Below, piece by piece: positions 6,210 through 23,277 of a stretch of DNA of 28,821 nt. The notes under the pieces are model-generated. The model was not told where the DNA came from. It ran no database searches and worked only from the letters and a program-made list of their open reading frames with translations. Location: the IMG/VR virus record IMGVR_UViG_3300020395_000073, positions 1 to 28,821 of that record; one strand, 5' to 3'. The stretch is from a virus. Made by a program: the position numbers and the translations under genes. Positions within the stretch are counted from its first letter, which is position 1. Every line of letters starts with the position of its first letter.

Positions 6210-8675
6210 ATGTTTAGTTCTGAGAAATGGTTTGGCGGCGGTGCGGATAATTTTTACTCACATACCATAAACCAATCCCTGCGTTTGAATGATGCAGATG
6301 CTTCATATCTAAGCCGCACTCATGATACTGGTGATAGAGAAAAATGGACATTTAGTTTTTGGGTTAAAAGAGGTGATATAACAAAAACATTGGTTTCTCC
6401 AAAGTATGAGTATATCCTACACACTAGTTTAACTGGGGGTACTGCTCATGGTTATATTTATTTTGATAACGATAGACTAACATATTGGGAAGGTGCTGTA
6501 GTGTTTAGAACAACTGCGGTCTTTAGAGATCCTTCTAGTTGGTACAATATTGTTGTTGCTCGTGACTCAGCCCAGAGTGGCAATGCAAAATGTAAGATTT
6601 ATGTCAATGGCACAGAGTTAACAAGTTTCGAGACAGATAATAGAAGTTCAAATACAGGCACTTCATACTTTAATCAAAATATTGGACATTATATAAGCAC
6701 TAGCCAAGCGTATAGCATTGATGGTTACTTAGCAGAAATTAATTTTATAGATGGTGCAATGTTGACTCAATCATCCTTTGGAGAAACCAAAGCTGGTATT
6801 TGGATTGCTAAAGACACATCTAATCTAAGTTTTGGAACCAACGGATTTAGATTAACTTTTCAAGGCACAGGCACAAGTACAACATCTCAAGGCACAACTG
6901 CACAGACAAATATTGGTGATGATCAATCTGGTGGCGGTCATAATTGGGCAGTAACAAGCATTGTTTCGGCAGACGTTGTTTTAGACAGTCCAAATAGAAA
7001 TTTTGCTGTTTTTAATTCTATACTTCCAATAGTTCAAGACTTTCATGAAGGAAATTTAAAATGTAATTCCACTGAAAATAATTTTGAAATTCAAGCGGCA
7101 ACAGTTTTTCCTTCTAATGTTTCTGGAAAATGGTACGCAGAATTTTATATTCACACTGTAAATGGTAGCACTTTGCGGGTCGGTGTTGGGGTAACAAGTA
7201 TAAACACAAATCCAACTCTGTATTTAGGAGAAGCTGCTGATGACATAGGTTATTATGAAGTTAACGACATTTATCGTGGAGGCAGTAAAATTGCAGATAC
7301 AGACGCATCTTTTACTGCTGGTGATATTGTTAGCGTCTCTTTAGATTTAGATGCTGGTGAAGTAACTTTTAGAAAAAATAATTCAACAATGAGTAATGGT
7401 ACTCAAAGCCTTACTTCAAATAAGTTATATACCATTGCGACTACAAACTATGGAAACACAGCAGGTGTAATTGCAAATTTTGGTCAAGATAATACTTTCT
7501 CTAACACGAAAAGTGACGGCGCAGGTGCAGCTGATGCAAACGGTGTAGGAGAGTTTTATTACAGTCCACCGTCTGGTTACCTAGCCCTTTGTGCAGCCAA
7601 CCTGTCCAACCCAGGTATAGACCCTGCGCAAGACGAAGAGCCAGCAGACTTTTTTAACACGGTGCTTTATACTGGTAACGGAAGCAGTTACACAGACACG
7701 CAAGCGATTTCTGGAGTGGGTTTTTCTCCTGATTTTACATGGATTAAAGCCAGAAGTGCATCATATTCTCATGTTTTAAATGACAGAGTTCGGGGTGCTG
7801 GTAAAAATTTATTTTCAGATTCTGATACAACAGAAAATGTTGGGGGCAGTACGGGAGATTTATTTACATCATTTGACAGCGATGGTTTTACTGTTAACTA
7901 CAAATACGGTGGCGGTTCAAATGCTGCTGTAAATGGAAATGGTACAACCTATGTAGCATGGAACTGGCTGGCTGGCGGTTCTGCGGTAAGCAACAGTAAC
8001 GGCACAATCACATCATCTGCATCTGCAAATACAAAAGCAGGGTTTAGTATAGTTAGCTATACTGGCAACGGTTCTGCTGGGGCTACGGTGGGTCACGGCC
8101 TAGCTAGTGCGCCTGAGCTTTTTATTACTAAAAGACGAAGCCAAACCGACCCTTGGCAAACTTATGTTGCATCATTAGGCGCAACTAAAAGACTTGAACT
8201 TGATGCAACTAGTGCTGCAATAACATCAACCGCATCATTCAATGATACCGAACCTAATTCTTCTGTTTTCACTTTAGGTTCTGGTGGTTATGGCAATGCG
8301 TCTAGTGCTACTTACATAGCCTACTGTTTCCACAGCGTTGATGGTTACAGCAAAGTTGGCTCATTTACCGGCAATGGGTCTGCTGATGGTGCGTTTATTT
8401 ATACAGGATTTAGGCCAGCGTGGCTTATGATAAAAAGTTATGACCAAACAAGAAATTGGACAATCTTTGACAACAAGCGCACGCCATTCAATTTAATGGA
8501 CGGGCATCTTCATGCTAACGCATCTGTCGCTGAACAGACAGGGTCAGATGAAATAGATTTTTTAAGCAATGGCTTTAAGTTTCGCAGCCCAGATGCTGAT
8601 TCAAATTACAGTAATTTCAATTACATTTACCTCGCTTTTTCAGAGCAACCCTTTAAGTACGCTAATGCCCGATGA
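6210..8675 (+). CDS. Large tail fibre/receptor-binding candidate with LamG-like, SPRY-like and DUF7483-like regions
   Basis: 821 residues, beginning four bases after the tail fibre stop. Residues about 20-215 look like a concanavalin A/LamG-type sandwich (ASYLSRT, WTFSFWVKRG, IDGYLAEINFIDG). Residues about 240-445 resemble a SPRY/B30.2-type module (GKWYAEFYIH, DIVSVSLDLDAGEVTFRKN). Residues about 480-821 resemble the DUF7483 region of marine phage proteins and contain three spaced copies of a (Y/F)TGNGS motif near residues 487, 616 and 717, each followed by a W- or F-containing strand (FTWIKARS, LFITKRRS, WLMIKSY). These folds commonly bind carbohydrate or protein, so a role in host recognition or particle decoration is likely. 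No membrane segment or signal peptide. Domain calls are from sequence appearance only. Confidence 0.72.
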   Translation: MFSSEKWFGGGADNFYSHTINQSLRLNDADASYLSRTHDTGDREKWTFSFWVKRGDITKTLVSPKYEYILHTSLTGGTAHGYIYFDNDRLTYWEGAVVFRTTAVFRDPSSWYNIVVARDSAQSGNAKCKIYVNGTELTSFETDNRSSNTGTSYFNQNIGHYISTSQAYSIDGYLAEINFIDGAMLTQSSFGETKAGIWIAKDTSNLSFGTNGFRLTFQGTGTSTTSQGTTAQTNIGDDQSGGGHNWAVTSIVSADVVLDSPNRNFAVFNSILPIVQDFHEGNLKCNSTENNFEIQAATVFPSNVSGKWYAEFYIHTVNGSTLRVGVGVTSINTNPTLYLGEAADDIGYYEVNDIYRGGSKIADTDASFTAGDIVSVSLDLDAGEVTFRKNNSTMSNGTQSLTSNKLYTIATTNYGNTAGVIANFGQDNTFSNTKSDGAGAADANGVGEFYYSPPSGYLALCAANLSNPGIDPAQDEEPADFFNTVLYTGNGSSYTDTQAISGVGFSPDFTWIKARSASYSHVLNDRVRGAGKNLFSDSDTTENVGGSTGDLFTSFDSDGFTVNYKYGGGSNAAVNGNGTTYVAWNWLAGGSAVSNSNGTITSSASANTKAGFSIVSYTGNGSAGATVGHGLASAPELFITKRRSQTDPWQTYVASLGATKRLELDATSAAITSTASFNDTEPNSSVFTLGSGGYGNASSATYIAYCFHSVDGYSKVGSFTGNGSADGAFIYTGFRPAWLMIKSYDQTRNWTIFDNKRTPFNLMDGHLHANASVAEQTGSDEIDFLSNGFKFRSPDADSNYSNFNYIYLAFSEQPFKYANAR

Positions 8676-8687
8676 TAGGAGACAGCC

Positions 8688-9242
8688 ATGCCTTGGAAAC
8701 TAGGTGACAAGATAATTAGAGAAGGACGTAGCTGGTCTAACGATGGCGTTACGCATCCTACAAACTGGGCTATCTGGTCAGATGCAGATAAGAAAGCGGC
8801 AGGGCTTACCTGGGAAGACCCACCAGCATTGTATGACAATCGTTTCTACTGGGATGCAAAAACACCCAAAGCATTGGATGATGTAAACGATGTTGATGAA
8901 AACGGCAAGGCAGTTATTGACCCTTTAACAGGAAAACAGAGTGTCACAAAAGGATTAAAAACAATTTACATTGAGCAAACAAAACAAACTGCTAATAATA
9001 AATTATCCGCAACAGATTGGTACGTCACACGGAAAGCAGAGGACAGCAAAGCAACAATACCATCTGACGTTACAACGTACAGGGCGGCTGTTCGCACAAA
9101 GTCTGGCACAATAGAAAAAGCCATTACAGATGCAGCAGACCATGCTGCTTTTATGGCTTTGTTTGATACGCCGATGGACAGCCAAGACCCGCCACAACCT
9201 ACTGGCAACGCGCCTATAAATGACTGGCCTGATGAGTTATAA
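8688..9242 (+). CDS. Tail-fibre-assembly-like protein
   Basis: 184 residues, preceded by a strong GGAG site five bases before the ATG. The N terminus (MPWKLGDKIIREG) and the C-terminal region (ATDWYVTRKAEDS, IPSDVTTYRAAVR, followed by an IEKAITDAAD helix) match a type of protein often found just after marine phage fibre genes and resembling DUF4376/tail-fibre-assembly proteins: a beta region followed by a helical 'DWYVTRK' module. Such proteins are thought to help fold or attach fibres, or to be minor virion components. Position directly downstream of two fibre genes supports this. No enzymatic motif is visible. Family membership is recognised moderately well; function is inferred. Confidence 0.65.
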   Translation: MPWKLGDKIIREGRSWSNDGVTHPTNWAIWSDADKKAAGLTWEDPPALYDNRFYWDAKTPKALDDVNDVDENGKAVIDPLTGKQSVTKGLKTIYIEQTKQTANNKLSATDWYVTRKAEDSKATIPSDVTTYRAAVRTKSGTIEKAITDAADHAAFMALFDTPMDSQDPPQPTGNAPINDWPDEL

Positions 9243-9244
9243 AA

Positions 9245-9691
9245 ATGCTTGCAGAGTTAGCAGCAGCCAACGCTGCATTTGCAATAATAAAAAAGACTAT
9301 ACAGAATACAGGTGACTTAACTAGATGCGGCAAAGCAATATCTGACCTAATTATTGCCAAAGAAGAACTCAAGCGTAAAGGTAACAAAAAAAGAAGAGGA
9401 AGTATAAGGAAGGGTGATTTAGAAGAGTTTATTGCCCTTGAAAAACTTAGACAGCAAGAGAACGACTTGCGTAGCTGGATGCAGCTTTATGGTCGTGCTG
9501 GCCTATACAGGGATTGGCAAGAGTTTCAAGCAAAGGCTCGTAAGGAACGCAGAGTGCAAGAGGAGCTTGCTAGACGCAGACGAGAAGAAATCATGGAGAT
9601 GTTGGGGCTTGGATTTCTTGTTGTAGTTATAGCCAGCATGATTGGCGGTTTGGTTGCTTGGGTTGCTTGGCTGAAGGGATGGTTTGAATGA
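9245..9691 (+). CDS. Small protein with coiled coil and C-terminal membrane anchor
   Basis: 148 residues. The N-terminal 30 residues are alanine-rich and helical, residues about 40-118 are very charged (KGNKKRRGS, ARKERRVQEELARRRRE) and likely form a long helix, and residues about 122-145 form one strongly hydrophobic segment (FLVVVIASMIGGLVAWVAW). Proteins of this layout occur in the same position in marine podophages and myophages, between fibres and lysis genes, but their function is not established to my knowledge. The stop overlaps the next ATG by four bases (ATGA). A structural, membrane-contact or lysis-accessory role is possible. Confidence 0.6.
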   Translation: MLAELAAANAAFAIIKKTIQNTGDLTRCGKAISDLIIAKEELKRKGNKKRRGSIRKGDLEEFIALEKLRQQENDLRSWMQLYGRAGLYRDWQEFQAKARKERRVQEELARRRREEIMEMLGLGFLVVVIASMIGGLVAWVAWLKGWFE

Positions 9692-9894
9692 GTGCAGAAG
9701 AAGTTGCTAGAAAGTTATTAGAGTTAAAAATACTGCCGCGTTTTATGATGCTGTGCATGACAGGCGTGTACATTAGATGCATTGAGTGGGCATTGTCACA
9801 GCCTGATCTTACGACACAACAAGCAAGTTTGATATCTGTTGTAACTGGTGCGATGACGGGCAGCCTAGCAGTTTGGCTCAACTCCGAGAAGTAA
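9688..9894 (+). CDS. Small two-helix membrane protein, holin-like candidate
   Basis: 68 residues with two hydrophobic segments, about residues 19-36 (FMMLCMTGVYIRCIEWAL) and 45-64 (ASLISVVTGAMTGSLAVWL), a charged N terminus and a short tail ending NSEK. The ATG overlaps the previous stop (ATGA). The size and topology fit a class II holin, a pore former that releases endolysin, and the endolysin gene lies 1.4 kb downstream in the same transcription unit. The 125-residue protein at 10456-10833 is a competing holin candidate, so the pair could be holin and antiholin. Confidence 0.55.
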   Translation: MSAEEVARKLLELKILPRFMMLCMTGVYIRCIEWALSQPDLTTQQASLISVVTGAMTGSLAVWLNSEK

Positions 9895-10257
9895 ATGCCA
9901 GCAAAGCTGAATGAGAACACAGAGGTAGCATTACCGCTACGGAATATCATCAGCATGGTTGCGGCGGCTAGTCTAGCAACGTGGGCTTACTTTGGAGTAA
10001 TAGAAAGACTTAACACGTTAGAGACTTCTAGAGAATTAATGAACGCTGACTTGCTTAAAAAATCTGAACAGACGACTACGGATTCTGAACAGTATATGCT
10101 AATTGAGCATTTGGCTGGTGAGCTAGAAAAACTACAGACAGACATAGAAAGCGGCAAAGCACCCTTTGACCAACAACAAAAACTAACGCTAGACTTTTAT
10201 GAAAGACGAATTACAAGTTTAGAAGAAAGCATGGAGAAGTTGCGGAACGGTGGTTGA
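9895..10257 (+). CDS. Membrane-anchored coiled-coil protein, i-spanin-like candidate
   Basis: 120 residues starting immediately after the previous stop. A hydrophobic segment at about residues 19-35 (ISMVAAASLATWAYFGV) is followed by a long charged helix (residues 36-118) with heptad-like leucines. This N-in, single-membrane-segment, coiled-coil layout is that of Rz-type inner-membrane spanins, which help disrupt the outer membrane after endolysin acts. No outer-membrane lipoprotein partner (lipobox) was found nested in or beside it, so the spanin reading remains a topology-based inference. Confidence 0.5.
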   Translation: MPAKLNENTEVALPLRNIISMVAAASLATWAYFGVIERLNTLETSRELMNADLLKKSEQTTTDSEQYMLIEHLAGELEKLQTDIESGKAPFDQQQKLTLDFYERRITSLEESMEKLRNGG

Positions 10258-10459
10258 GGTTACGTTTGTCTTATTGCTGGTTATGGGTGGGCAGAAGGTA
10301 GAATATACGCCCTATGAATCTCTAGGCGAATGTTTGGCGATTAGGCGTAAGATTAAACGTAATGTCGGGCATACAAACAACTTTGATCAGAAGTGGTCAT
10401 GCAAGCAGTTCAAAGTAATGATGCTAAACGGTGAGATATTGGAGTTTATAGAGGAATGA
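10250..10459 (+). CDS. Small hypothetical protein with hydrophobic N terminus
   Basis: 69 residues using a GTG start at 10250 that overlaps the previous gene by eight bases; its stop overlaps the next ATG by four bases. Residues 2-13 (VEVTFVLLLVMG) are hydrophobic and could be a short signal or beta strand. Two cysteines (in GECLAIRR and KWSCKQFK) are spaced as in a small disulfide-stabilised secreted protein. The protein is not recognised. Its place in the lysis chain suggests a periplasmic accessory, but nothing shows this directly. Confidence 0.5.
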   Translation: MVEVTFVLLLVMGGQKVEYTPYESLGECLAIRRKIKRNVGHTNNFDQKWSCKQFKVMMLNGEILEFIEE

Positions 10460-10833
10460 TACAGGCATTGATAGGCCCAATAGCTTCACTAGCTGGGTCA
10501 TGGATGGAGTCCAAGGTAGAGCAGACAAAGGCCAAAGGTGCTGTTGCCAAGGCAAAGGCAGAGGCAGAAGCGGAAGTGATGAAGGTTGCTGCTACGCATG
10601 AAGCTGGCTGGGAAAAGATTATGGCACAGGCCAGTGACAATAGCTGGAAAGACGAAGCGTGGACAATTTTGTTTATTATTATCATAGCTATGTGCTTCAT
10701 TCCGTTTACACAGCCTTATGTGGAGCAGGGTTTTGCAGCCTTAGAAAACACCCCACAGTGGTTTCAGTGGGCTATGTATGCTAGTATTGGAGCAAGCTTT
10801 GGCATACGAGGCATAAAGGGTTTTAAGAAATGA
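10456..10833 (+). CDS. Holin-like membrane protein
   Basis: 125 residues. The N terminus is weakly hydrophobic (IQALIGPIASLAGSWM), then an alanine/lysine/glutamate-rich helix (residues 20-50), a strong membrane segment at about 72-92 (WTILFIIIIAMCFIPF), and a second weaker one at about 104-119 (WAMYASIGASFGIRG) ending in a basic tail GIKGFKK. The order amphipathic helix, charged linker, then two hydrophobic segments resembles the 3TM holin family of gene transfer agents and phages. It lies upstream of the endolysin in the same overlapping gene chain. I favour this as the main holin, with the 68-residue protein as the alternative. Confidence 0.6.
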   Translation: MIQALIGPIASLAGSWMESKVEQTKAKGAVAKAKAEAEAEVMKVAATHEAGWEKIMAQASDNSWKDEAWTILFIIIIAMCFIPFTQPYVEQGFAALENTPQWFQWAMYASIGASFGIRGIKGFKK

Positions 10834-11015
10834 GCAAGAGAAAGTTTCCAAAAGTACCCAAGACAAAGGGCGGTGTGCCAAAAAAGTATGTGCGTGGCGC
10901 AAAGAACCCGAAGAAACGTGAGGCAGAAATAAAGCGTACTGCCAAGCTTTACAGACAGGGCAAGCTTACCAAAGCTATGATGGATAAAATAAGCAAGCAA
11001 AGGAGTAGGGGATGA
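10830..11015 (+). CDS. Very basic small protein
   Basis: 61 residues with 23 lysines or arginines and only three acidic residues. The middle (VPKKYVRGAKNPKKREAEIK) is a pattern I have seen in marine phage and algal virus small proteins, without a firm function. The start overlaps the previous stop by four bases (ATGA), and its own stop overlaps the next ATG. High charge suggests nucleic-acid binding or packaging with DNA, which is inference. It is the first of five basic proteins around the endolysin. Confidence 0.6.
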   Translation: MSKRKFPKVPKTKGGVPKKYVRGAKNPKKREAEIKRTAKLYRQGKLTKAMMDKISKQRSRG

Positions 11016-11281
11016 GCAAAGCTGCTGTAATAGCAAAATATTCTAAGTCTTCTGGAATATCAAAATCTACTCTAAGCAAAGTTTATTCAAGGGGATTAGG
11101 CGCATACTACGGCTCTGGATCTAGGCCGAAGGTTTCAGCGCATCAGTGGGCTGCTGGTCGTGTCCGGTCTTTTGCCACTGGCAAGGGTGGAGCTAGGCGT
11201 GCAGATGCAGATTTGCTTAGGGGTGGCAAGAAGAAAAAGAAGCCAGCAACAAAGAAAACAACAAAGCGCAGAAAAGCATGA
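11012..11281 (+). CDS. DUF5824-like basic protein
   Basis: 89 residues. Residues about 33-72 (RPKVSAHQWAAGRVRSF and GGARRADADLL) match the pattern of DUF5824 proteins of marine phages and large viruses: a conserved HQWA-x-RV-x-SF core followed by a glycine-rich ADxDL segment. The last 18 residues are a lysine-rich tail. It overlaps both neighbours by four bases. The function of the family is unknown; DNA association is suggested only by charge. It lies directly before the endolysin. Confidence 0.65.
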   Translation: MSKAAVIAKYSKSSGISKSTLSKVYSRGLGAYYGSGSRPKVSAHQWAAGRVRSFATGKGGARRADADLLRGGKKKKKPATKKTTKRRKA

Positions 11282-11733
11282 ATGTAGATCAATTACGCAT
11301 AGAACTCGCTGAAGACGAGGGTTGTAAGTATGAGATATACTTAGACCATCTTGGCTTGCCAACTTGTGGCATAGGTCATTTGGTTACAGCACAAGACCCA
11401 GAATCAGCTTTGAGCGTTGGTACAGCCATATCAGAAGAGCGTGTTGATACGTTGTTTCGCAGAGATGTTGCAGTAACTCTTGAGGATTGCAAAAGGTTGT
11501 ATGAAAACTTTGATGAGTTGCCAGAAGAAGTGCAGCTTATCGTAGCCAATATGATGTTCAACATGGGGCTTCCCCGTCTGTCAAAATTCAAAGGCATGAA
11601 GGCTGGTGTTGATGCTAAAGATTGGAATAAAGCAGCAGATGAAATGGTGGACAGCAACTGGTTTGACCAAGTGCCTAATCGTGCAAAGCGTCTGGTTGCT
11701 CGTATGAGGGCCGTGGAGAGCGACCATGGCTAA
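11278..11733 (+). CDS. Endolysin, T4 lysozyme type (GH24)
   Basis: 151 residues. The N terminus carries the catalytic layout of T4-type lysozymes, E-8x-D-5x-T: Glu14 (in AEDEGCKYEIY), Asp23 (LDHLG) and Thr29 (PTCGIGHL). Later conserved features include NMMFNMG near residues 90-96 and a NRAKRLVARMR helix near the C terminus, equivalent to the arginine-rich segment of the family. It hydrolyses peptidoglycan glycan strands at the end of infection. There is no signal peptide or signal-anchor, so it would need a holin for export, in line with the membrane proteins upstream. The ATG overlaps the previous stop (ATGA), and the next gene overlaps its end by eight bases. Confidence 0.93.
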   Translation: MNVDQLRIELAEDEGCKYEIYLDHLGLPTCGIGHLVTAQDPESALSVGTAISEERVDTLFRRDVAVTLEDCKRLYENFDELPEEVQLIVANMMFNMGLPRLSKFKGMKAGVDAKDWNKAADEMVDSNWFDQVPNRAKRLVARMRAVESDHG

Positions 11734-12034
11734 AACCCCTGCTTGGCAGCGCAAAGAAGGGAAGAACCCTAGAGGGGGCTTAAACGCCAAGGGAAGGGCA
11801 TCTGCCAGAAGACAGGGCATGAATTTGAAGCCGCCTGTAAAGAAGGGTGACAACCCACGCAGGGCTAGTTTCCTAGCTAGAATGGGCAACATGAGAGGCC
11901 CAGAGTACAAGAACGGCAAGCCAACCAGATTGCTTCTATCCCTGAGAGCATGGGGTGCAAGCAGTAAAGCTGATGCAAGAAAAAAGGCAGCAGCTATATC
12001 CAAGCGCAACAAAGCGAAGAAGAGGAAAGCATAA
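11726..12034 (+). CDS. DUF6321-like basic protein
   Basis: 102 residues, extremely basic. The pattern PRGGLNAKGRASARRQGMN, then LKPPVKKGDNPRRASFLARM and a GPEYKNGKPTRLLLSLRAWG segment, matches DUF6321 proteins found in many phages, which share a GL-x-x-KGR, SF-x-ARM and G(R/K)PTR core. The C-terminal 25 residues are lysine/arginine rich. Function is not known; charge suggests DNA or RNA binding. It overlaps the endolysin by eight bases, and its TAA stop overlaps the next ATG by one base. Confidence 0.68.
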   Translation: MAKTPAWQRKEGKNPRGGLNAKGRASARRQGMNLKPPVKKGDNPRRASFLARMGNMRGPEYKNGKPTRLLLSLRAWGASSKADARKKAAAISKRNKAKKRKA

Positions 12035-12156
12035 TGCCTGGTCATAAAAAGAAGGGTATGAAAAAGAACGGCAACGGTATGCTGACTGCAAAACAAAAGA
12101 CTTTGCCAGCAGCATTACAGAAGAAAATCATTGCAGCAAAGAAGAGGAAGAAGTAA
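12034..12156 (+). CDS. MPGH micro-protein 1 (40 residues, polybasic)
   Basis: This 40-residue reading frame begins ATG-CCT-GGT-CAT (MPGHKKKG) and ends KKRKK. It holds 14 lysines or arginines and no aspartate or glutamate. Its ATG overlaps the previous stop by one base, and the next gene starts immediately after its TAA, the same close coupling as the rest of the operon. The MPGH start is shared with the following gene, so the two look like paralogues. Short MPGHY/MPGHK lysine-rich proteins are familiar from marine phages; their role is unknown. A translated product is likely but not proven. Confidence 0.6.
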   Translation: MPGHKKKGMKKNGNGMLTAKQKTLPAALQKKIIAAKKRKK

Positions 12157-12273
12157 ATGCCTGGACATTACGGTGGTAAAAAAGGTGGCATGAAATCTGC
12201 CAAGATGAAGAAGCAAGCAGCTACGGCTATTGCTATGAAGAAAGCTGGCAAGAAGCCAAAGAAAAAACGGTAG
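12157..12273 (+). CDS. MPGH micro-protein 2 (38 residues, polybasic)
   Basis: 38 residues starting MPGHYGGKKGGMKS and ending KKPKKKR, with 14 lysines or arginines and no acidic residue. It follows the first MPGH protein without a gap and is the last gene of the plus-strand block; the terminator begins three bases after its stop. The N-terminal MPGH and the alternating lysine/alanine middle (KKQAATAIAMKKAGKK) make it a probable tandem paralogue of its neighbour. It could bind DNA or membranes; no function is established. Confidence 0.6.
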   Translation: MPGHYGGKKGGMKSAKMKKQAATAIAMKKAGKKPKKKR

Positions 12274-12276
12274 AAT

Positions 12277-12300
12277 AAAGGGGGCTGTTACGCCCCCTTT
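12277..12300. terminator. Strong hairpin terminator between convergent gene blocks
   Basis: A perfect 9-bp stem (AAAGGGGGC at 12277-12285 pairing with GCCCCCTTT at 12292-12300) with a six-base loop, followed on the plus strand by TTC. It sits three bases after the last plus-strand gene and two bases before the stop of the minus-strand operon. It should end plus-strand transcription and may also act on the other strand, where the T-run is weaker. Confidence 0.9.
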
Positions 12301-12302
12301 TC

Positions 12303-12563
12303 TTAGATTACAAACTCTCCACCGTTGTAGAGATACTGGGTGAGTTGGTCTATCATATACTCTTCAGTCCATATCCCCCCAGCCATTGTGCCATCTGGCA
12401 GCATCCCCTTTCCTTTGGGATAGTAAGGCTCAATCCCATGCGCCTCACCGATTCGATACATACCCCAGCCAGAGACAACAAGGAAGCGATAGTACGCATC
12501 AGCTTGATCCCTCGCCTGATTCCATTTCTCTGTCTTTACGGTACTTAGTGAAACAACAGTCAT
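12303..12563 (-). CDS. Hypothetical protein, last gene of the recombination operon
   Basis: 86 residues from the ATG at 12563 (MTVVSLSTVKTEKWNQARDQ), ending EEYMIDQLTQYLYNGGEFVI. The frame is open further upstream to a possible start at 12620, and a later ATG at 12461 would give 52 residues. The sequence KWNQARDQADAYYRFLVVSGWGMYRIGE looks genuinely coding, so I prefer 12563, although this makes a 65-base overlap with the preceding gene and the ribosome site is weak. The C-terminal half is aromatic- and glycine-rich. No family is recognised and no membrane segment is present. Confidence 0.5.
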   Translation of the reverse strand: MTVVSLSTVKTEKWNQARDQADAYYRFLVVSGWGMYRIGEAHGIEPYYPKGKGMLPDGTMAGGIWTEEYMIDQLTQYLYNGGEFVI

Positions 12564-17835: not shown

Positions 17836-17866
17836 CATTGCTGTGCGGCAGAACTGCAAGGCAATG
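17836..17866 (+). terminator. Hairpin terminator candidate after the plus-strand cluster
   Basis: CATTGC (17836-17841) pairs with GCAATG (17861-17866), with an additional inner TGC/GCA pairing. It is followed by a C5 run and then a pyrimidine tract that includes six T residues at 17884-17889. It sits 18 bases after the endonuclease stop. The T-run is not immediately adjacent, so efficiency is uncertain. Confidence 0.5.
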
Positions 17867-17901
17867 CCCCCTTTCTCTTCTTCTTTTTTATAAATAAAAA
17901 A

Positions 17902-17933
17902 AGCAATGCTCTGCATCATTGCAAAGCATTGCT
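17902..17933 (-). terminator. Strong intrinsic terminator of the leftward accessory operon
   Basis: Arms AGCAATGCT (17902-17910) and AGCATTGCT (17925-17933) are perfect complements. Inside, TGCA/TGCA pairs around a four-base TCAT loop after one C/A mismatch, giving about 13 pairs. On the minus strand the hairpin is followed directly by TTTTTTTATTTAT, a textbook intrinsic terminator, 30 bases after the last leftward gene. Confidence 0.88.
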
Positions 17934-17962
17934 ATGTGCCGTGCGGCATTGATATTTCTCTG

Positions 17963-18184
17963 CTAGTCTACGACTGCGTGTTTGATTCTTTTGTGAAGTT
18001 TTGTAGCAACCTCATCATTTACATCATAAATGTTTGCTCTGCCCTCTGGTGGAAACTTGCTTTCTCTCTCGCTTTTCCGTTTAGCCATTTTATTCTTTTG
18101 CTTAAATATAGACAAACTTCTGAGAAGAATGTTTCTCTCTTGTGAGGTAAGAATATTGAAGTTTATGGGATATGTATTCTGCAT
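17963..18184 (-). CDS. Small hypothetical protein, last gene of accessory block
   Basis: 73 residues, with AAGG nine bases before the ATG at 18184; an internal ATG at 18088 would give 41 residues. ILTSQERNILLRSLSIF near the N terminus forms an amphipathic helix, followed by a basic stretch (KMAKRKSERESKF) and an acidic helix. The C terminus, KHAVVD, nearly repeats the end of the next gene upstream (KHAVVE), and the DNA there matches at 16 of 17 bases. No family is recognised. It ends 30 bases before the operon terminator. Confidence 0.6.
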   Translation of the reverse strand: MQNTYPINFNILTSQERNILLRSLSIFKQKNKMAKRKSERESKFPPEGRANIYDVNDEVATKLHKRIKHAVVD

Positions 18185-20678: not shown

Positions 20679-20898
20679 ATTCCTCTATTGTCATTGTGAT
20701 TTCTTCCTCAGTGGCATTGTCTTGATATTTTAGAATTGCGCCTTTTAATGCGTACCATGCCCAACCAGAATAGTTATCTTTGCAAGGCAGCATGATTAAG
20801 GCGTTATTTGTTGAATAATCACCGCCAACCATCCATTTGCCACCGCTGTCTTTTTTGGCCTTCATCTTTGCGCCAAGGTGAAAAGCTTTGTATATCAT
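20665..20898 (-). CDS. Hypothetical protein, first gene of leftward accessory operon
   Basis: 77 residues, with AAAGGGATC ten to twelve bases before the ATG. N-terminal MIYKAFHLGAKMKAKKDSGG is basic, followed by KWMVGGDYSTNNALIMLPCK and a SGWAWYALKGAILKY strand-helix, then an acidic tail (TEEEITMTIEEWTEA). It is the gene nearest the promoter at 20988-21016, so it should be the most highly expressed of the block. No family recognised; small size and charge segregation fit an early phage host-takeover or inhibitor protein, which is only a guess. Confidence 0.6.
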   Translation of the reverse strand: MIYKAFHLGAKMKAKKDSGGKWMVGGDYSTNNALIMLPCKDNYSGWAWYALKGAILKYQDNATEEEITMTIEEWTEA

Positions 20899-20987
20899 CT
20901 TTTTTGATCCCTTTGATTCGGCGGCATTTTTCGCAGTTTTCCGCCAGTTTTGCTAGTTTGGCCCGTTTTTTGGCCGGTTTTTTTCAG

Positions 20988-21016
20988 TATATAATGAACA
21001 ATGGTCAAATAGTCAA
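20988..21016 (-). promoter_or_regulatory. Sigma70-type promoter for the leftward accessory operon
   Basis: On the minus strand: TTGACT (-35; 21016-21011), 17-base spacer, then TATATA (-10; 20993-20988). The -35 differs from consensus at one base; the -10 matches at four of six and the spacing is ideal. Transcription would begin near 20981, leaving a leader of about 80 bases before the first ATG. Confidence 0.72.
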
Positions 21017-21061
21017 GCATAAAAATATATGATATTAAATAATGCATACATTGATTAGCAA

Positions 21062-23049: not shown

Positions 23050-23277
23050 ATGTCATTCCTAAGACCCAAGACAGTCACACCACCACCACCTCCACCACCA
23101 CCTCCCCCACCTATGGAAATGGGCAGGGAGGACACTGTTCGTGCAGAGGCTATGGCAGATGAGGCGGTAAGAACACAGCGTAGGAAAAGAGGCCGTAGGT
23201 CAACTATTGTTGCTGGCGGCTTGGTAGAAGGTGATGGATCTCCTTCATACGGTGGCACTCCAACCATACTGGGATAA
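23050..23277 (+). CDS. Small poly-proline virion-locus protein
   Basis: 75 residues with a strong GGAG site before the ATG. Residues 11-21 are eleven consecutive prolines, followed by a helix (VRAEAMADEAVRTQ), a basic run RRKRGRRSTIV and a glycine-rich end. A short protein of the form MSF-x-PPPPP...RRGRxxTI...LG between terminase and portal is widely conserved in podophages, but I know no assigned function; it is often a minor virion candidate. Eleven prolines should make translation depend on EF-P. It ends three bases before the portal start. Confidence 0.75.
   Translation: MSFLRPKTVTPPPPPPPPPPPMEMGREDTVRAEAMADEAVRTQRRKRGRRSTIVAGGLVEGDGSPSYGGTPTILG
23080..23112 (+). repeat. CCA/CCT/CCC proline-codon tract
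   Basis: Eleven in-frame proline codons, mostly CCA with interspersed CCT and CCC. It is a low-complexity tract prone to length change, and its reverse strand produces a poly-glycine reading frame that is an artefact. Confidence 0.85.

Follow-up and report, generated by a model that had tools for sequence, protein, structure and literature searches.

Organization of the Locus

The window considered here is the whole 28,821-base IMG/VR virus record. Judging from its genes, the phage is podovirus-like, with a T7-like connector/portal gene (PF12236) and a terminase resembling that of pelagiphage HTVC010P, to which it is approximately 51% identical over 99% of its length; at the DNA level, the only match among phage records was Hodr. 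The terminase, the portal, a scaffold-like gene and a probable capsid gene are located at 21.3–28.8 kb, and the internal, fibre-like and lysis genes occupy 1–12.3 kb, all on the plus strand. An 821-aa protein carrying a SPRY domain and DUF7483 (6210–8675; 4.4e-119) is probably a host-binding, fibre-like protein, and a small ORF with an 11-proline run (23050–23277) stands directly upstream of the portal gene.

The last genes of this plus-strand late series encode five small basic proteins, here called P1, P2, P4, P5 and P6, interrupted only by the lysozyme. Their upstream border is a probable holin (10456–10833, plus strand), GTA holin-like and of the 3-TM type, matched by phrog_2524 (3.4e-27) and, weakly, by PF11351 (0.0011, below the cut-off) and the holin family phrog_3427 (0.0019). 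It is followed by P1 (10830–11015, 61 aa) and P2 (11012–11281, 89 aa), then by the endolysin, a phage lysozyme (11278–11733; PF00959, 3.4e-10) that divides the group in two, and finally by P4 (11726–12034, 102 aa), P5 (12034–12156, 40 aa) and P6 (12157–12273, 38 aa), all on the plus strand. Successive reading frames overlap by 4 nt (ATGA type) at 10830, 11012 and 11278, by 8 nt at 11726 and by a single nucleotide at 12034, and they abut at 12157. The operon ends at an intrinsic-terminator-like hairpin (GGGGGC-TGTTAC-GCCCCC and a T-rich stretch; 12277–12304, plus strand), read by eye and missed by the automatic scan, beyond which the genes lie on the minus strand.

The first-pass annotation had described five strongly basic small proteins around the lysozyme, and the ORFs bear this out in both position and length. 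Net charges are +20, +23, +27, +14 and +14 for P1, P2, P4, P5 and P6 (+0.33, +0.26, +0.26, +0.35 and +0.37 per residue), and the lysozyme itself is acidic (net −10). No other called gene of the window reaches 0.15 net charge per residue, except for a dubious 41-aa ORF (20895–21020), and the occurrence of five basic genes among six consecutive ones has a permutation P of 0.0004 within the window.

Coding Status and Constraint

All six ORFs, the five basic ones and the lysozyme, are found by a codon-based gene caller. When compared with homologues 60–97% identical, each of the five basic genes has a pN of 0.15–0.19 and a pS of 0.71–0.83 (0.18 and 0.82 for P5, with 7 homologues; 0.19 and 0.71 for P6, with 6), and purifying selection acts on all of them. 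With pS close to saturation, an exact dN/dS would carry little meaning, but the constraint at the protein level is clear. The start/stop overlaps of 1–8 nt, together with a pN far below pS, identify these ORFs as real genes. Their shortness, low-complexity ends and frequent lack of annotation, as in S-CBP4, could be taken as signs of spurious or vestigial ORFs within K-rich DNA; that reading is refuted by a pN/pS of about 0.2 in all five, and the conserved motifs, coupled starts and hundreds of homologues also make it barely credible. In Synechococcus phage S-CBP4 (KC310804), a DUF6321-like coding stretch at 17861–18133 has no annotated gene over it, and small basic genes are easily missed in this way.

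Features of the Individual Proteins

P1 belongs to the 'VPKKY' family (phrog_38321, 4.6e-7), and P2 comprises the C-terminal half of DUF5824 and a Lys-rich tail (PF19141, 5.1e-13; 49.7 bits, above the curated cut-off of 25). As only profile positions 63–123 are covered, P2 alone is not a full-length DUF5824. Of the 131 unique DUF5824-C genes, 115 are directly preceded by a member of the P1 family, mostly with an overlap of −1 or −4 nt, and when P1 and P2 are joined in silico, the match begins at profile position 1, with the PKKY motif, the join adding no score (49.8 bits, compared to 49.7 for P2 alone). Compared to the Pfam family, DUF5824 thus seems to be split over two coupled genes, P1 being likely, although not proven, its detached N-terminal half. 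The AF2 model of P2 has a helical domain (pLDDT 76) and a disordered tail, and confident fold matches of the P2/DUF5824 model were to other DUF5824-like viral proteins only (BFVD). Searches of phage records by tblastn with P1 and P5 returned no match. Among DUF5824 loci of the HTVC111P type (L378–L457), approximately 50 of the 57 that are non-redundant have a metallophosphoesterase gene flanking the cassette on its downstream side.

P4 is a full-length DUF6321 (PF19846, 1.4e-19; 71 bits, curated cut-off 28.5, profile 1–72; phrog_4689, 2.9e-28) with a basic C-terminal helix. The assignments to DUF5824 and DUF6321 had been proposed earlier and are confirmed by these profile matches; Pfam states no function for either family. 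The AF2 model of P4 has a pLDDT of 85.5 and a pTM of 0.66, and a fold search with the DUF6321 model returned no match. Structure prediction, suggested at the outset as a check, has provided predicted folds for P4 and P2, but no confident match beyond other DUF5824-like proteins. The invariant residues of DUF6321 are G18, G23, R45, S48, A51, R52, R68 and W76; together with the predicted folds, they are suggestive of binding domains that are folded and bear basic tails, and the conserved DUF6321 residues argue against a purely protamine-like role. DUF6321 matches 495 of 50,697 phage records, with aquatic organism names, and is absent from P-SS2 and HTVC008M. A scan of bacterial genomes with a single sequence found 13 contigs, all with MAG or draft-bin titles; phage-like genes are present on several of them. 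The label 'RecA-like recombination protein', given to the DUF6321 mini-proteins of Synechococcus phage MinM2 (L009:5001-5246) and of Pelagibacter phage Greip (MT375525), is probably a misannotation that has propagated.

Regarding P5 and P6, neither contains Asp or Glu, as had been noted for this pair. Their description as MPGH paralogues stands for the first four residues, which are identical, but the remainder is not significantly similar (shuffle P = 0.10 without MPGH). Their cores resemble different recurrent motifs, 'LPxALQKKI' in P5 and 'KQAATAIAMKKAGKK' in P6, although one in-house HMM scores both; paralogy of the two appears unconvincing at the sequence level. P5 has counterparts in Hodr (39 aa) and HTVC201P (35 aa), which share a cluster with DUF6321 and were found only by reading DUF6321 neighbours. 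In relatives of P6, an RGRP (AT-hook-like) motif precedes the 'KQAATAIAMKKAGKK' core.

A Recurrent and Swappable Cassette

Relatives were retrieved from IMG/VR by four queries and redundant loci were removed, locus counts still containing related contigs; a small basic gene was defined as one of at most 180 aa with a net charge of at least 0.15 per residue. Co-occurrence around DUF5824 and DUF6321, also proposed as a check, was confirmed: in the four seed sets, small basic genes make up 30%, 52%, 44% and 47% of the genes within three genes of the DUF6321 or DUF5824 seed, compared to 2.3%, 1.6%, 7.1% and 3.0% at eight genes or more. Adjacent basic pairs numbered 277, against a maximum of 116 in 1000 permutations. 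The basic genes fall into 30 families, each present in at least five loci, including DUF6321, DUF5824, a DUF6496 family (7.2e-11), a Tlr6F/DUF5754-like family (weak, 0.0039) and unnamed motifs. In relatives, the genes flanking the cassette include those for portal, scaffold, terminase, major capsid, head closure, holin and endolysin. In two loci of the HTVC027P type (L359 and L173), a GroES co-chaperonin homologue adjoins it.

The most informative pattern here is that of the slot between holin and lysozyme, compared among loci having homologues of both window genes. In the window lineage, this slot holds the P1-type N-terminal gene and DUF5824, as in the window, or the same pair with one to three more basic genes; alternatively, it is filled by GLYANIH alone (L199, L051) or by two basic genes that we take to be DUF5872-like (L056, L022, L087), for which a Pfam scan of family representatives gave no match. 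Downstream of the lysozyme, window-lineage loci have DUF6321 and/or the P6 type. Selection thus keeps a basic complement, and the succession of unrelated families in one slot, with charge as the main common trait, fits a nucleic-acid or charge-based role.

The modules also occur joined to one another. GLYANIH is fused to DUF6321 in a 285-aa protein (L473; also phrog_11180 and phrog_28131), a KDACY-module to DUF6321 in the 495-aa SSM1_115 of S-SM1 (also phrog_727 and phrog_3477), and DUF5824 to a Tlr6F-like module in a 650-aa Melnitz protein; such fused modules are carried by larger phages. A 287-aa protein (L466:5-868) likewise joins a c3-type module to DUF6321. The five genes are the window's version of a modular cassette that is non-random, recurrent, conserved at the protein level and composed of interchangeable families. 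The local cluster noticed at first is real, but what had been taken as five genes around an endolysin extends to a multi-family, swappable cassette recurring in other phages.

Association with Virions and DNA

As described for CsCl-purified virions of cyanophage S-CREM2, mass spectrometry detected ORF137 (108049–109521; 4 unique peptides, 4.1% coverage) and ORF160 (128342–129235; 7 unique peptides, 13.1% coverage), both listed as hypothetical (PMC10665884, Table 3). In our searches, gp137 (490 aa) has a C-terminal DUF6321 (PF19846, 3.5e-10), and gp160 (297 aa) carries the KDACY module (3.9e-23). This detection is the first virion evidence found for these families and comes, at low coverage, from distant relatives that are large fused proteins, in which the peptides may lie outside DUF6321; some of the detected proteins may also be carry-over. 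The terminase small subunit (gp135, encoded nearby) and large subunit are absent from the same table (PMC10665884), which speaks against indiscriminate contamination. In the same phage (OR473000), gp12 (7704–10313), a Cas9-like nuclease annotated as a virion protein, has 28 unique peptides in that table.

In P-SCSP1i, which belongs to the same phage group as P-SCSP1u, a DUF6321/GLYANIH gene pair immediately follows the capsid gene. The cryo-EM structure of P-SCSP1u includes capsid, portal, adaptor, nozzle and fibre, the icosahedral capsid being without decoration proteins (PMC10575957). It is considered neutral to mildly negative evidence, because disordered DNA-bound proteins would stay invisible. 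A further link, between DUF5824 and the virion cytidylyltransferase of S-SM1 (PMC3037559), had been prompted by the presence of DUF5824 in such a protein of Melnitz, and was dropped because most of the listed cyanophage matches span only the enzyme part (approximately residues 5–274).

The RGRP motif is found in 24 of 989 basic proteins (2.1 expected), mainly P6 relatives and with related copies counted, compared to 7 of 3968 non-basic ones. With a net charge over length of 0.26–0.37, the five proteins are small and strongly basic, as are protamine-like core proteins. By simple arithmetic, offsetting 10% of the phosphates in a 28.8-kb genome would take approximately 59 copies of each. Neither single proteins nor profiles gave a useful match to PDB sequences; no recognisable DNA-binding fold was found, as PDB sequence and fold searches lacked a confident match, and neither Pfam and NCBIfam nor the PDB sequence and fold searches showed any relation to HU, H-NS and similar proteins. 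The early suggestion of packaged, DNA-compacting proteins gains from the S-CREM2 virion detection of fused relatives, the head, packaging and lysis gene context and the RGRP enrichment, but not from any DNA-binding fold.

Proposed Role and Alternatives

The best explanation, to which we would give an even chance, is that these are nucleic-acid-binding proteins that either accompany the genome into the head or function at the packaging step. Each mini-protein would be a small nucleic-acid-binding module, produced alongside the virion proteins, that binds phage DNA during or after packaging and enters the head with it, where it could serve as counter-ion or compaction protein and/or as a tether for cargo; alternatively, it may act at packaging itself. 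The flanking holin and lysozyme would then mark the end of the late operon rather than being partners.

The membrane-active peptides suggested at first are disfavoured. Lysis accessories, cationic peptides that disrupt membrane or murein and aid holin and endolysin, would suit the genes flanking holin and lysozyme in the window lineage, and the HTVC111P relatives are likewise near an endolysin. However, no segment of the five proteins is membrane-spanning or strongly hydrophobic: over 19 residues, their Kyte-Doolittle mean never exceeds 0.21, whereas that of the adjacent holin reaches 2.15. Many homologues are found next to head or terminase genes, away from lysis genes, and the fused forms were detected in virions, leaving this role very improbable. 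A host-takeover role, in which basic proteins made late would target the host nucleoid (the nucleoid disruption suggested at first), RNA polymerase or ribosomes and stay out of the virion, is unlikely. Small, basic, rapidly exchanged genes lacking an assigned function are typical of takeover, and some weak matches of the DUF5824 model, none of them significant, are to chains of sigma factors and ribosomes. Most takeover genes, however, are early, the genes here are at the late operon end or amid head genes, and again the fused forms were detected in virions.

Assembly or packaging factors that leave the virion, for example after binding terminase, scaffold or capsid during filling, would agree with the cyanomyovirus DUF6321 gene located between the terminase subunits and with DUF6321 genes elsewhere bordering portal, scaffold or capsid genes. 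The detection of gp137 in finished S-CREM2 virions and the position of the window-lineage genes at the lysis end, far from the head genes, make such transient factors a minor possibility. Within the preferred reading of packaged nucleic-acid-binding proteins, a broader proposal is more doubtful than not: aquatic tailed phages would possess swappable basic core proteins, in approximately 30 mini-families with links to a module of giant and polinton-like viruses, that coat or condense packaged DNA or tether cargo, as the phage equivalent of viral chromatin, in particles presumed to depend on metal ions and polyamines.

Relation to Known Systems and Significance

Phage T4 is known to package small internal proteins in its head alongside the DNA, and these carry a cleaved capsid-targeting sequence; the cassette is alike in its small proteins and proposed head packaging, with no sequence match seen. 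Basic DNA-associated virion proteins are already known in eukaryotic viruses, such as PBCV-1, where very basic proteins include A278L, A282L (with the PBCV-1 basic adaptor domain) and A437L (PMC3281028). As in the cassette, these are virus-coded, and some join a basic module to other domains; however, PBCV-1 is a eukaryotic giant virus, and no sequence relation to the cassette is shown. Regarding Tlr6F/DUF5754, it is present in polinton-like viruses, in virophages and giant viruses, and in some phages (PMC4642659, PMC12220804), and is noted as widespread among viruses and of unknown role (PMC4642659). A sister cassette family weakly matches DUF5754 and has a DUF6321-like end, in addition to the Melnitz fusion with DUF5824, whereas Tlr6F-like genes are missing from the window.

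In the open-licence literature, no paper was found that names DUF5824 or DUF6321, or that describes the cassette as a system, an absence that is not proof; its families are catalogued DUFs without a function, and what differs from the Pfam entries DUF5824 (PF19141) and DUF6321 (PF19846) is that both are here part of a multi-family cassette. Hundreds of sequenced cyanophages and pelagiphages, which rank among the commonest viruses of the ocean, contain these modules, and the cassette recurs in the late genes of both marine and freshwater phages. Their proteins are small, often unannotated and ill-suited to trypsin proteomics, and are thus easily missed.

For phages, there is said to be no evidence of basic proteins contributing much to the neutralisation of dsDNA (PMC3281028). 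If the cassette proteins do travel with the genome, neutralisation of tailed-phage DNA without basic proteins would become a directly testable assumption, several families lacking a function would obtain a common hypothesis, and packaged basic proteins, unusual for tailed phages, would be part of the particle.
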